Shown: positions 3,741-9,633 of the stretch, in pieces
Numbering within the stretch: position 1 is the stretch's first letter
How the letters are laid out: each line of letters starts with the position of its first letter
DNA from: a bacterium
GTDB taxonomy: Bacteria; Planctomycetota; J058; JAJDCP01
Direction: 5' to 3'
Length of the DNA: 13,111 bases
Assembly: GCA_030428695.1 (NCBI GenBank)
Contig: JAUIEM010000284.1
Location: forward strand, 1-13,111
Translations under genes and position numbers: made by a program
Notes under the pieces: model-generated
Told to the model about the DNA's origin: nothing
The model's database searches: none
Seen by the model: the letters and a program-made list of their open reading frames with translations, nothing else

Positions 3741-3768
3741 CGACGCTGCATCGCGTCATGCAGCGTCG
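3741..3768 (-). terminator. 10-bp hairpin straddling the tatC stop codon
   Basis: CGACGCTGCA (3741-3750) and TGCAGCGTCG (3759-3768) are perfect inverted repeats around an 8-nt loop. The tatC TGA is in the loop, and the upstream arm is the last codons of tatC. On the minus strand it is followed by TGGAATTTGG, which has no proper T-run. It may therefore be a weak or Rho-assisted terminator, or a 3' stability element, rather than a classical intrinsic terminator. It separates tatC from the argG-like gene. Confidence 0.5.
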
Positions 3769-4886
3769 GACGCCTCTTCGGGGGCTGTCACGGGTTTTCC
3801 GAACAGCTGCACGAGCACGATGCCGATCTCGTACAGGAGCACCATCGGCACCGCCATCAGCACCTGGGTGATCGGATCGGGCGGCGTCAGCACCGCCGAC
3901 AGGACGAAGGCGAGCAGGATGAGATAGCGCCGGCCCTTGCGCAGCCGGGGCGGATCGACCAGGCCGATCTTGCCGAGGAAGAGCAGGATCAAGGGGAGCT
4001 GGAACACCAGGCCGAGGAAGACGGTCAGGAGGATGAACAGCGAGAGGTAGTCCGACAGCGTGATGCCGAGGGCGAGGTACGACGGATCGCCGTAGGTCGC
4101 CATATAGCTCAGGCCGATCGGGATCAGGATGAAGTAGCCGAACAGCGCGCCGCCGACGAACAGGAAGAAGCTCGCCGGCGCGAAGATCACCACGTAGCGG
4201 CTCTCGTGCGCGTACAGGCCCGCGGCGACAAAGCTCCACAGCTCGCGCCCGGCGAGGGGCGAGGCGAAGAAGATCGCCAGGATCAGGGCGACCTTGAAGT
4301 GCGACAGGAAAGACTCGGGATAGCGCAGGACCCGCAGCTTCGGGTCGACCTCGAGCACCTTCTCCTCGCTCTCGGGCAGGCGCGCACGCAGCCCCTGCGC
4401 GACCTCCTGCTCGAAGGTGCGCACCGCGGTCCGCCAGCGATCGAGGGCGGAGATCAGGCCGGGCAGCGCGGTCGAGTCGGCGCCCGCCTGATAGCTCGCG
4501 AGCGCCCGCTCGAAGGCCTGGGCCGCCGCCGTCGCGCTGTCGGCGAGCACCTGGCCACGGACCACCTCGGCCCGGACCGCGTCGAGGGCCTCGGCGGGCA
4601 GCTCGGCCTCGGCCGTCTGGAGCCGCTCACGGGCGTTGGAGAGGGCCGCGAAAACCTCTTCGACCTCCGGGGCCGCCGTCGCGAAGCGGCGCTCGAAGGC
4701 CTCTCCGCGCAGCCGCCCGCTGATCGTCTCGATCGCGGACACGTGCGGCTGGACGACCAGGGTCATCAGCTCGGCCTGGAACCAGAACGCGACGACGAAG
4801 GCGGCGAGAATCCAGAGGAGCGCGCGCAGGATGCGCATACGCAGCTCTTCGAGGTGCTGGCCGATGGTCAGCTTGCGGGAGTCCAT
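3756..4886 (-). CDS. tatC: Sec-independent protein translocase TatC with enlarged first periplasmic loop
   Basis: TatC is the inner-membrane subunit that recognises twin-arginine signal peptides and exports folded proteins. The conserved parts are present: HLEELRMRI (11-19) before TM1 (about 20-42), PESFLSHFKVAL (190-201), LYAHES with the signal-peptide-site Glu (224-229), LTPPDPITQ (333-341), and six hydrophobic segments in all. Length is 376 residues against about 250 usually. The excess is a single block between TM1 and TM2: the first external loop runs from about 44 to 190, some 115-120 residues longer than in E. coli. The insert is rich in A, E, R, Q and L and looks helical. ATG 4886 has AGGAG 4 nt upstream, and a sigma-70-type promoter lies just before it. 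No tatA or tatB is adjacent. The 3' end overlaps a hairpin. Confidence 0.95.
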   Translation of the reverse strand: MDSRKLTIGQHLEELRMRILRALLWILAAFVVAFWFQAELMTLVVQPHVSAIETISGRLRGEAFERRFATAAPEVEEVFAALSNARERLQTAEAELPAEALDAVRAEVVRGQVLADSATAAAQAFERALASYQAGADSTALPGLISALDRWRTAVRTFEQEVAQGLRARLPESEEKVLEVDPKLRVLRYPESFLSHFKVALILAIFFASPLAGRELWSFVAAGLYAHESRYVVIFAPASFFLFVGGALFGYFILIPIGLSYMATYGDPSYLALGITLSDYLSLFILLTVFLGLVFQLPLILLFLGKIGLVDPPRLRKGRRYLILLAFVLSAVLTPPDPITQVLMAVPMVLLYEIGIVLVQLFGKPVTAPEEASDAA

Positions 4887-4919
4887 GGATCTCCTGTGCG
4901 CGGCCGTCGAGGGCTCCCG

Positions 4920-4948
4920 AGCTTACGCCTGGGGCCGGGTAGCGTCAA
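4920..4948 (-). promoter_or_regulatory. Sigma-70-type promoter of tatC
   Basis: On the minus strand, TTGACG (4948-4943) and TAAGCT (4925-4920) are separated by exactly 17 nt. Transcription would start near 4913, giving a leader of about 26 nt that contains the tatC ribosome-binding site. The -35 side, TTGACGCTACCCG, is nearly the same as in the rho promoter. Confidence 0.75.
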
Positions 4949-5130
4949 GGGGATGCGGGCCGCCGGGGAAGCGGGCGGTCGCGCACGGCGACCCGACATC
5001 CTCCGAAGGTCCGTTCGAGGCACCGGGATCCCCTGCTGCGACCCGGACACTGCCGATCCCGGGCGTTCCACGGCGCTCGCCCTTCGCGACGAGTCGCAGC
5101 GACCGGGATGCTCCTGCCGCCCGATGCGAA
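4949..5130. other. Non-coding spacer between the BRCT operon terminator and the tatC promoter
   Basis: About 180 nt with no convincing gene. The minus-strand open frame across it overlaps both the terminator hairpin and the promoter, and its residues look random and rich in Arg, Pro and Ser. Short CCGGGAT-like words recur in both orientations, with no regular spacing that could be established. Confidence 0.5.
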
Positions 5131-5150
5131 GACCCCGCCGGAGCGGGGTC
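5131..5150 (-). terminator. Terminator hairpin with UNCG-type tetraloop after the BRCT operon
   Basis: GACCCCGC (5131-5138) and GCGGGGTC (5143-5150) form a perfect 8-bp GC-rich stem. Read on the minus strand, the loop is TCCG closed by C-G, an exceptionally stable UNCG-type tetraloop, followed by TTCGCATC. It starts 24 nt after the stop of the second BRCT-like gene. The T-run is poor, so termination strength is uncertain. Confidence 0.6.
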
Positions 5151-5174
5151 GTGGTCACGGCCTGGAGGTCGCGC

Positions 5175-6611
5175 TCAGCGGCGCAGGAACTTGAGCAGGT
5201 CGCGCTCGCGCATGATGTTGATCCCGAACTGGAGAGCGGTCTCGAACGCGGTCGATTCCTCGGCGCGCTCGATCGCGATCACGAAGTCGGTCTCGATCGT
5301 GACCTCGTCCTCGACGCGGCCCCCGATCTCCTGGATCTTCAGGGTCAGCTCACGCATGCTGTAGTGCGGGTTGGTCAGGTTCTCCCCGACGAACACGAAC
5401 ACCGGCTCCTCCTCGGGATCGAAGAACGGGCTGCGGATGCGGTCGCCCTTGATGATCGGGTTGAGGTAGCGCGGCAGCTCGATCTTCTCCTGCAGCTCGG
5501 GGTCGTAGATCGTGTACCCCTCGATGATGCTCGCCTGGCTGCGGTCGTCGTGCACCTCGCGGATCTCGACCATGCCCTTGACCTGCTTCCGGCCGCCCTT
5601 GAGGATCGAGAAGACCTCGAACTTCATGCCGGGCCGGGCGCCGTGGTTGTGGCCGAGGTCGACCCAGGCGTAGCCGAGCGACTCGTCGACGTGGATCACC
5701 TCGCCGTCGGCCGCGGTCTCGCTCTGCGTCTTCTGCCGCTTGCGCAGGAGGTCGGCGATGCGGGAGCTCAGGACGGCGATCTGGGCCTGGATGTCGGCCT
5801 GCTCGCGGACCGCCTTGGCCTTCTCCTCGCCGAGCTGCTCGCGGTAGCCGGCGAGCTCGGTGCCCAGGTTGGCGATCGTGACGTTGCGCGAGCTGATCTC
5901 GTTGGTGTACTCGCGCTCGAGATCCTTCAGCCGCTCGCGGAAGTCGTCGATCGAGTCGCGGTCGGTCTGGATCAGAGCCTGGTTGTTCGTGATGTGGTCG
6001 TGGGCGACCTGGTACATGTTCCCGCGCTCATCGCGCCGCTCGTTGAGGAACTTCGTGCAGGCGCGGATGATCTCGACCATGTCCTTGTGGAGGTTCCGGG
6101 TGTGCGCGTAGTACGGCGTCTGCGTCTCCTCGTCGACCTTGACCTCGAGGTTGAGGTTGTACTGCGACAGCGCGGACTCTTCCTGGGCCGCCTGGGCGAC
6201 GAAGCCCGGGAAGGTCTGCTCGTAGCCCGGGCCGAGCTCGATGTTCTCGCTCGCCGCCCACTCGCGGAGCCGACCGGGTGCGCCGTCCCGACCCCACTCG
6301 TCCTCCGTGACCAGCGCGGTCAGCATCGCCATGTCGGGGATGTACCGCGTCCCGTACGCGGGATCGAAGGACATCACCTCATGCAGGCTGCCGCCGAGCG
6401 CCTTGCGCATCTCGGCGATCTCGCGGCGCTTGATACGGAAGTCCTTCTCCGCATTCTCCAGCGCCTGCTCGGCTTCACGCAGCTCGACCCGCGCGCCCTT
6501 CTTCTCCTCTTCTACATCGTTGTAGAGCTGGTAGGCCAGCAAGGCACAAGCGAAGAAGATCAGGATCGAGGCGATCAATGGGCCGAGGCCCGTTCCCCTG
6601 CGATGACGCAT
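5175..6611 (-). CDS. Membrane-anchored coiled-coil protein with beta-barrel-like and BRCT-like C-terminal domains (second of tandem pair)
   Basis: A protein of 478 residues and unknown function. A short basic N-terminus (MRHRR) precedes one hydrophobic segment (about 9-30), predicting N-in, C-out orientation. Residues 31-72 and about 215-297 are charged, heptad-like coiled coil, with a less regular helical region between. Residues about 303-362 (YAWVDLGHNHGARPGMKFEV, then KGMVEIREV) resemble the small beta-barrel repeats of extracytoplasmic proteins such as MreC or FlgT. Residues about 402-478 have the pattern of a BRCT domain: VFVFVGENL, IGGRVEDEV, TDFVIAI, ALQFGINIMRERDLLKFL. The upstream neighbour shares the whole layout. 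ATG 6611 is chosen over an in-frame GTG at 6617 because GGAG lies 7 nt before it. That ribosome-binding site abuts the stop of the upstream gene, leaving an 11-nt gap, so translation is likely coupled. The gene is real with high confidence; the domain names are by-eye assignments. Confidence 0.85.
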   Translation of the reverse strand: MRHRRGTGLGPLIASILIFFACALLAYQLYNDVEEEKKGARVELREAEQALENAEKDFRIKRREIAEMRKALGGSLHEVMSFDPAYGTRYIPDMAMLTALVTEDEWGRDGAPGRLREWAASENIELGPGYEQTFPGFVAQAAQEESALSQYNLNLEVKVDEETQTPYYAHTRNLHKDMVEIIRACTKFLNERRDERGNMYQVAHDHITNNQALIQTDRDSIDDFRERLKDLEREYTNEISSRNVTIANLGTELAGYREQLGEEKAKAVREQADIQAQIAVLSSRIADLLRKRQKTQSETAADGEVIHVDESLGYAWVDLGHNHGARPGMKFEVFSILKGGRKQVKGMVEIREVHDDRSQASIIEGYTIYDPELQEKIELPRYLNPIIKGDRIRSPFFDPEEEPVFVFVGENLTNPHYSMRELTLKIQEIGGRVEDEVTIETDFVIAIERAEESTAFETALQFGINIMRERDLLKFLRR

Positions 6612-6622
6612 GTGCACTCTCC

Positions 6623-7969
6623 CTACGGCTCGATGAACTTGTAGATGTCATCTTCGTCGATGAACGTGATACCGAACTGCGCGGCGCGCTGATAGCCGTC
6701 GTCGTTCTCCGGCTTGAGCCGGGTGATGACGAAGTCGGTGCGGGCCGAGACCTGGTTCTCGAGGATCCCGCCCGCGCGACGGATCATGCGGTCGATCTTG
6801 TCGATGCCGTCGGTCGCCGTGCGGTAGAGCGGATTCTTGAAGTCCTCGCCGACGAACACGAACACCGGGCGCCGGCTCGGGCTGTAGAACGGCGTGCGGA
6901 CCAGGTCGCCCTGGACGATCGGCTCGTACTCCTCGGGCAGCGTGTGCCACTGCCCGGTCTCGTAGTCGCGCATCCGGACGCCCGGGATGATGATGCACTG
7001 GGCCTGGGACTCGTCCATGCGCTGGACCTCGATCAGGCCCTTGATGTGGCGCCGCCCGCCTCTGGCGAAGGCGAACACCTCGAAGCGCTGCCCGAGCCGC
7101 AGCCCGTGGCGCGACCCGAGGTCGATCCAGACCTTGCCGAGGACCAGGTCGGAGTGGTCGATCCGGCCCTGGGGCTCGAGGTCGGCGATGGTCGTCAGCT
7201 CGCGTTCGATCAGCACGCGGATCGAGTCGGCCTTGAACGACAGCGCGGTCTTCAGGCTGCTCAGCGCGCGCTGATTGTCGCGCTCGGCCCGGCGGATATC
7301 GCGCTTCTCGGCCTCGATGTCCTTGCGCAGGTCGGAGATGCGGTTGTCGAGATCGCGGGTCTCGCTGCCGATGCGCGCGGTCCAGTTGTCCGCCTGGGTC
7401 TGGATCTCCTCGCGCAACGACTTGAGGCGCTGCTGGGTCTCGACCCGCTGCGCTTCGAGCTTGTCGCCGAGCTCGGTGACGCCCTCGACGACGAGGTCGG
7501 CCTGGCGCACCTGGAACAGCAGGTGCGCGGCCTCGACCGTCAGCAGATGGTTCATCTGCCGCAGGTCCTCGTACTCGCCGTAGGAGTACTCGAGACCCTC
7601 GTAGGGGTTCGTTCCCCCGAGCGCCGCGATGACGTTCGGCGGCAGCGTCTCGTCGTTCAGGATCATCTTGAAGCCGGGGACGTCGTCGATCTGGTCCTTG
7701 AAGACCTTCTTCCACTCGCCCTCGTCGTTGCTCGAGAAGGGCTGTCCGCGCCGATCGCGACCGGTGAGGATCGCGCGCAGGCGGGTCGACTCCTCGAGCA
7801 GGTCGGCCTGCTGACCTTCGATCAGCGTCCGCTCGATGTCGAGCCCTTCGGCCTTCGCGGTCAGGCGTGCGTGCTCCGACGAGTAGTGGAGGGTCACCAG
7901 CAGGGAGCCGATGGTCAGCGTGACGAAGACCACAGTGGGGATCGTCATGTCCAGCTTTTTCTTGGCCAT
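6623..7969 (-). CDS. Membrane-anchored coiled-coil protein with beta-barrel-like and BRCT-like C-terminal domains (first of tandem pair)
   Basis: A protein of 448 residues and unknown function, paralogous to the next gene. MAKKK then a hydrophobic segment (about 9-29) predicts a single-pass, N-in anchor. Coiled-coil-like stretches occupy about 31-66 and 145-265, with a G/P/Y-containing region between. Residues about 268-328 (VWIDLGSRHGLRLGQRFEVF, then KGLIEVQRM) match the beta-barrel-like region of the partner. Residues about 368-448 match its BRCT-like end: VFVFVGEDFKNPLY, AGGILENQV, TDFVIT, AAQFGITFIDEDDIYKFI, with about five extra residues before the GG turn. ATG 7969 has GGAG 5 nt upstream; an in-frame GTG at 7975 is less likely. 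This is the first gene of a two-gene operon facing away from rho. A divergent regulatory region with four GTCA repeats lies upstream. An obvious -35/-10 pair with normal spacing was not found. Confidence 0.85.
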   Translation of the reverse strand: MAKKKLDMTIPTVVFVTLTIGSLLVTLHYSSEHARLTAKAEGLDIERTLIEGQQADLLEESTRLRAILTGRDRRGQPFSSNDEGEWKKVFKDQIDDVPGFKMILNDETLPPNVIAALGGTNPYEGLEYSYGEYEDLRQMNHLLTVEAAHLLFQVRQADLVVEGVTELGDKLEAQRVETQQRLKSLREEIQTQADNWTARIGSETRDLDNRISDLRKDIEAEKRDIRRAERDNQRALSSLKTALSFKADSIRVLIERELTTIADLEPQGRIDHSDLVLGKVWIDLGSRHGLRLGQRFEVFAFARGGRRHIKGLIEVQRMDESQAQCIIIPGVRMRDYETGQWHTLPEEYEPIVQGDLVRTPFYSPSRRPVFVFVGEDFKNPLYRTATDGIDKIDRMIRRAGGILENQVSARTDFVITRLKPENDDGYQRAAQFGITFIDEDDIYKFIEP

Positions 7970-8017
7970 ACCCACTCCGATTGCGTGCGATCTGGGGGCG
8001 ATTTTTGAGGCTACATT

Positions 8018-8057
8018 GTCACTCGGAGTGTCATCCTCGTGTCACCCCGCGGGTCAC
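8018..8057. repeat. Four helically phased GTCA(C/T) direct repeats
   Basis: GTCAC at 8018, GTCAT at 8030, GTCAC at 8041 and GTCAC at 8053 lie in the same orientation at steps of 12, 11 and 12 bp, close to one DNA turn. They sit 50-90 bp upstream of the first BRCT-like gene and about 55 bp before the rho -35 element. They could be binding sites for a regulator, most plausibly of the minus-strand operon. On the minus strand the second unit reads ATGACA, but the best -10 after it (TAGCCT) is only 15 nt away. Confidence 0.45.
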
Positions 8058-8110
8058 GCGGACCGGTTTCCGCACCCTCCTTCCACGCGCCCCCGCGCCC
8101 GAAGTTTTGC

Positions 8111-8139
8111 TTGACGCTTCCCGCGGTGAGGTGTAGCTT
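8111..8139 (+). promoter_or_regulatory. Sigma-70-type promoter of rho
   Basis: TTGACG (8111-8116) and TAGCTT (8134-8139) are exactly 17 nt apart, with TG directly before the -10. Initiation near 8146 would give a leader of about 114 nt before the rho ATG. Confidence 0.75.
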
Positions 8140-8145
8140 TGCGGT

Positions 8146-8186
8146 ACCGACATCCGTCCCTCCCCAACGAATCCTCAGGCCCACCC
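8146..8186 (+). promoter_or_regulatory. C-rich, G-poor rho leader, possible rut site
   Basis: The first 41 nt after the predicted start contain 22 C and only 5 G, unlike the G-rich surroundings, with many pyrimidine-C steps. Rho loads on unstructured C-rich, G-poor RNA, and E. coli rho is autoregulated by termination in its leader. A similar autogenous loop is inferred here. Confidence 0.4.
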
Positions 8187-8259
8187 GGTGCGCGTTCGTT
8201 CCGCTCCGGAAGGCAACCCGCTTCCAGCCAGATCCGAACCGACATCAGGAGCCCGAGCT

Positions 8260-9633
<1,374 letters not shown>

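Follow-up and report, generated by a model that had tools for sequence, protein, structure and literature searches.

BRCT domains, as described to date, act on DNA or phosphoproteins. The 13,111-nucleotide stretch of planctomycete DNA analyzed here (the window) encodes two adjacent proteins, P0001 and P0002, in which a BRCT-like segment appeared to follow a transmembrane (TM) helix, a coiled coil, and a small barrel, which raises the question of what such a domain does on a membrane-anchored protein, and on which side of the membrane it lies. The initial annotation, made from the sequence alone, recognized no described family in this architecture, likened it to MreC, and suggested an envelope scaffold. 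We addressed the question computationally, and describe here the architecture, fold, paralogy, gene order, and presence through the phylum of what proves to be a family of such proteins; a periplasmic location, dimer or heteromer formation, a docking function, and an envelope role are what we infer. In keeping with the first of these points, no listed Pfam or NCBIfam family spans the whole of either protein. No paper on the family was found in the open-licence literature, where titles and abstract starts were searched for BRCT with Planctomycetes, periplasm, transmembrane, and FlgT. What is known are the component folds; what is new is their combination, their predicted location, and their conservation through the phylum.

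Locus and domain architecture

Both genes are encoded on the minus strand, and their start and stop codons confirm the span 5175..7969 originally assigned to the pair: P0002 runs from an ATG at 7969 to a stop at 6623, and P0001 from an ATG at 6611 to a stop at 5175. The gap of 11 nucleotides between them is consistent with translational coupling. The two proteins share 34% identity over 268 residues (E 3e-46), in agreement with their proposed paralogy. The features of the locus are as follows, with residue numbers counted from the ATG.

3756..4886, minus strand: tatC, a frequent downstream neighbor, with a long periplasmic P1 loop
5175..6611, minus strand: P0001, downstream paralogue, 478 residues counted from the ATG, architecture as in P0002
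5178..5432, minus strand: P0001 BRCT domain, residues 394-478
5424..5711, minus strand: P0001 FlgT_C-like barrel, residues 301-396
5718..6101, minus strand: P0001 long helix/coiled coil, residues 171-298
6531..6587, minus strand: P0001 TM helix, about residues 9-27
6612..6622, minus strand: intergenic gap, 11 nt; GGAGAG, ribosome-binding-like, precedes the P0001 ATG
6623..7969, minus strand: P0002, upstream paralogue, 448 residues; TM helix, coiled coil, FlgT_C-like barrel, and BRCT domain
6626..6889, minus strand: P0002 BRCT domain, residues 361-448
6887..7189, minus strand: P0002 FlgT_C-like barrel, residues 261-361
7205..7564, minus strand: P0002 long helix/coiled coil, residues 136-255
7883..7945, minus strand: P0002 TM helix, about residues 9-29
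8260..9633, plus strand: rho, a frequent divergent upstream neighbor, likely ATG at 8260

Downstream of the pair, the minus strand of the window carries tatC, argG, and cinA, and mutS2 lies beyond rho. A scan of 4850-8300 found no promoters or terminators above chance.

The proposed layout of TM helix, coiled coil, barrel, and BRCT domain is supported by profiles, heptad periodicity, and predicted structures. The heptad signal in the 110 residues preceding the barrel reaches z 4.4 in P0001 and z 5.8 in P0002, and exceeds z 2 in 55 of 63 family members. The AlphaFold models of P0001 and P0002 are of moderate confidence (pLDDT 71.8 and 72.1, pTM 0.35 and 0.43, respectively).

The C-terminal domain is a diverged BRCT domain

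The BRCT assignment, first made from motif spacing, now stands on profile scores, matches to solved structures, and a predicted fold. P0001 scores 24.6 bits against Pfam PF00533, above the curated cut-off of 21.3, as do four of six further members, and P0002 falls under it at 16.2 bits, together with P0004 (21.1) and the second copy of L003 (18.1). At E ≤ 1, PF00533 matches all 16 of the diverse members compared. Searched against the PDB, the family profile finds the BRCT domains of DNA ligase (1l7b, E 1.6e-9) and RFC1 (1e-6), which are its closest solved relatives by sequence, and the models of both P0001 and P0002 show the C-terminal order β-α-β-β-α-β-α. The Gly-Gly/Ala turn after the first BRCT helix is also present, with G430 found in 66/67 members and followed by Gly in 38/67 and Ala in 19/67.

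In ten of the planctomycete genomes, a search with the Pfam BRCT model at E ≤ 0.001 recovered family frames in only six; each of the ten also yielded a frame of 681-888 residues, taken for LigA, and one genome (G204) yielded one other frame of 630 residues. Of the 14 well-known genomes searched in the same way as controls, 12 gave a match, counted together. Together with the score of P0002 under the cut-off, the recovery of the family in six of ten genomes indicates that its BRCT domain is diverged. One 843-residue frame likewise taken for LigA (L010, G001:C330) carries two BRCT matches side by side.

In BRCT domains of the LigA, RFC1, and BRCA1 type, a Ser or Thr preceding the Gly after strand 1 is a phosphate-binding feature. 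The Gly is near-invariant in the family (66/67), but the residue preceding it is Ala, Leu, or Val in 59/67 members and Ser or Thr in only 2/67, whereas the aligned ligase BRCT domains have Thr. With the Ser/Thr missing in 65/67 members, canonical phosphate binding at this site is unlikely, and the domain would therefore most likely serve in docking or dimerization rather than act on DNA or phosphoproteins. The BRCT domain is what the family has in common with LigA (PF00533; PDB 1l7b; integrative model 9a6z). Unlike LigA, these proteins are membrane-anchored, lack the Thr of the Thr-Gly site, are predicted to lie outside the cytoplasm, and contain no ligase; the full-length NCBIfam LigA model was not matched (22.4 bits against a cut-off of 444.45).

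The barrel resembles FlgT

The predicted models contain the barrel fold of FlgT_C (PF16538), and among the structural matches listed, the best solved match of the barrel is the C-terminal domain of FlgT, a periplasmic flagellar ring protein. At the sequence level the likeness is weak: P0001 reaches 13.2 bits against PF16538, under the cut-off of 27, the best printed score (P0005, 19.4 bits) is still under it, and 8 of 16 diverse members match at E ≤ 1. The resemblance is confined to the barrel (PF16538; PDB 3w1e, 8z5n), as no further FlgT domain is listed for these proteins, a BRCT domain follows the barrel, and the neighbors of P0001 and P0002 in the window are not flagellar.

MreC has a TM helix, a coiled coil, and a β domain, and this general layout, to which the initial annotation had pointed, is common to P0001 and P0002. 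The comparison does not extend to the barrel itself, whose nearest solved match listed is FlgT_C, or to the added BRCT domain. At E ≤ 5, Pfam lists MreC for neither P0001 nor P0002, and we therefore set an MreC-like barrel aside in favor of an FlgT_C-like one; the absence of MreC among the 50 fold matches listed carries no weight as exclusion.

Distribution and repeated duplication

The family is widespread in Planctomycetota. At E ≤ 1e-12, the family model (A3) matches 303 of 392 genomes sampled from the phylum, and the C-terminal model (A7), which unintentionally includes one full-length row (L054:7595-8914), matches 343 of 392, a count based on at most four scored candidates per genome and including the weakest matches, near 1e-13, uninspected. 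Two peptide patterns searched in one genome per species returned four relatives, all titled Planctomycetota, and searches of protein databases (~8000 candidates scored) returned two, four, and six proteins, with P0001 and P0002 themselves among the first two sets.

Gene order was compared in 49 loci with a family member, window included, chosen from the A3 matches for spread and not at random, some of them cut short. Tandem pairs occur in 11 of the 49 loci and a single copy in 38, a count that includes truncated loci and is to be read knowing that one genome (G015) has two copies on separate contigs. The pair is hence not general, and nor would a heteromer be. A tree built from 67 C-terminal regions places the pairs at different points according to lineage. 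A single clade of all second copies is rejected (p 1.6e-62), as is one of all first copies (p 4e-7), in tests for which both groups were named after the tree, in which two long branches are flagged, had been seen. These rejections indicate that diverged pairs have originated, and been retained, on more than one occasion; parsimony gives six changes between tandem and single on the 56 of 67 rows that are labeled (11 are not). Such repeated duplication would fit heteromer formation. At L044:10664-12109 and L049:10810-12264, proteins of ~480 residues, 55% identical to each other and unmatched by Pfam at E ≤ 1e-4, are encoded directly upstream of the tandem pair. A partner gene shared upstream across the lineage with old tandem pairs was considered and rejected, as L044 and L049 were the only loci to share the 482/485-residue protein among the frames compared.

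Gene order and a possible Tat connection

Of the 42 loci with at least 1.5 kb of sequence downstream, 30 have a same-strand tatC no more than 2.5 kb away on that side, and a divergent coaE or rho is found in 30 of the 43 loci with at least 1.5 kb upstream, a number from which the strand-overlap limit drops the coaE seen in the layouts of L057 and L069. By hand count, the 40 loci with room on both sides comprise 25 with both links, 3 with tatC only, 5 with coaE/rho only, and 7 with neither. In L051, polA sits between coaE and the family gene.

This arrangement could mean that the protein is a Tat accessory factor, its periplasmic coiled coil acting on the translocon or on folded cargo, perhaps via an extended P1 loop of TatC. 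The place upstream of tatC is that of tatA/tatB in many other bacteria; no Pfam TatA/B match is listed for P0001 or P0002 at E ≤ 5. In PMC3827258, a table row for Planctomycetia/Phycisphaerae (5 genomes) reads C <-> A^2, which is taken to mean that tatC is apart from tatA; on this reading, the family gene fills the position upstream of tatC in this phylum. In the TatC of the window, an insert extends the periplasmic P1 loop to about 145 residues. Among the 19 of 32 TatC frames whose loop was delimited by hydropathy, 8 have loops of 145-231 residues (the window's included), but 4 have 68-99 residues and 7 only 22-37, so that a strict tie between a long loop and presence of the family was discarded. 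Moreover, 12 of the 42 loci are unlinked to tatC, including all three loci with room, of five, in the old-tandem lineage (L044, L049, L050, L053, and L054), which shows neither link where there is room, and gene order can persist without common function. We consider a Tat accessory role unlikely, and prefer a structural role in the envelope.

Membrane topology

The proteins have one hydrophobic helix, and no further hydrophobic segment occurs in any of the 56 members for which a start codon was chosen. Within 15 residues of the helix, the N-terminal flanks of these members together hold 93 Lys/Arg and 26 Asp/Glu, and the C-terminal flanks 145 Lys/Arg and 159 Asp/Glu. The N-terminal flank is the more positive in 39 of the 56, the less positive in 7, and equal in 10, in a sample of mutually related members with start codons picked by rule. 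The charge rule thus predicts the N-terminus inside and the C-terminus outside the inner membrane, which would make the BRCT domain periplasmic; the extracytoplasmic placement originally suggested is favored by this rule, as a prediction. The cysteine content of the family (0.25%) compares with 0.21% for cytoplasmic Rho, which is equally Cys-poor, and so lends no support to the predicted topology.

If the C-terminus were instead cytoplasmic, the BRCT domain could tether DNA, or a repair or replication protein, to the membrane as a nucleoid tether. This would accord with the activity of known BRCT domains on DNA and phosphoproteins, with DNA ligase and RFC1 being the nearest solved relatives by sequence, and with neighbors such as rho and, in L051, polA. 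It is, however, at odds with the 39 to 7 balance of the charge rule, the absence of the phosphate-binding Ser/Thr in 65/67 members, and the resemblance of the barrel to FlgT, and we regard it as improbable.

In 12 of the 56 members (L057, L059, L061, L062, L064, L067-L070, and L073-L075), a motif R-G-[A/S/I/N] lies within the first 24 residues, close before the TM helix; we take it to resemble the prepilin-peptidase motif of GspK/TadE-type proteins without Glu5. A pilin-like or secretion-associated protein cut by prepilin peptidase is nevertheless very improbable, because this motif is missing in the other 44, P0001 and P0002 among them.

Proposed role

We thus return to the reading that we consider best, and to which we give an even chance, namely that P0001 and P0002 are membrane-anchored periplasmic scaffolds or adaptors with a barrel-BRCT head. 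Both would belong to a family of envelope proteins of the Planctomycetota and be anchored in the inner membrane by a single N-terminal helix, with the N-terminus inside as the charge distribution suggests. The coiled-coil rod would project into the periplasm, bearing a head for which profile matches and structural models indicate a FlgT_C-like barrel and a BRCT domain. This rod may form dimers, probably heteromers in two-copy genomes, and the BRCT domain would most likely be a protein-protein docking or dimerization module. The most likely role is then that of a structural scaffold or adaptor of the envelope, in many lineages encoded beside tatC. A more elaborate version, in which a phosphate-independent, extracytoplasmic BRCT docking head belongs to a phylum-specific envelope scaffold, repeatedly duplicated to heteromeric pairs and working with the Tat translocon, is doubtful as a whole.

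To the best of our knowledge, a BRCT module outside the cytoplasm would, if true, be an unusual case. Cell division in planctomycetes proceeds without FtsZ, and their envelope is unusual. With matches in 303-343 of 392 sampled genomes, the family is a concrete candidate for missing planctomycete envelope biology; for Planctopirus limnophila, the essential-gene study PMC10632474 reports 108 phylum-specific essential proteins of unknown function.

Divergent relatives

A few relatives depart from the common architecture. A short one at L013:288-1241, in the genome of L001, combines a TM helix and barrel with a degenerate BRCT-like end, and adjoins what is presumably a PP2C-type phosphatase gene. 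At L004:2210-3868, on a low-coverage contig, a frameshift breaks the family gene in two. Finally, P0013 (263 residues) has a TM helix, a coiled coil, and a similar barrel with no BRCT domain, which possibly hints at a broader family without BRCT.
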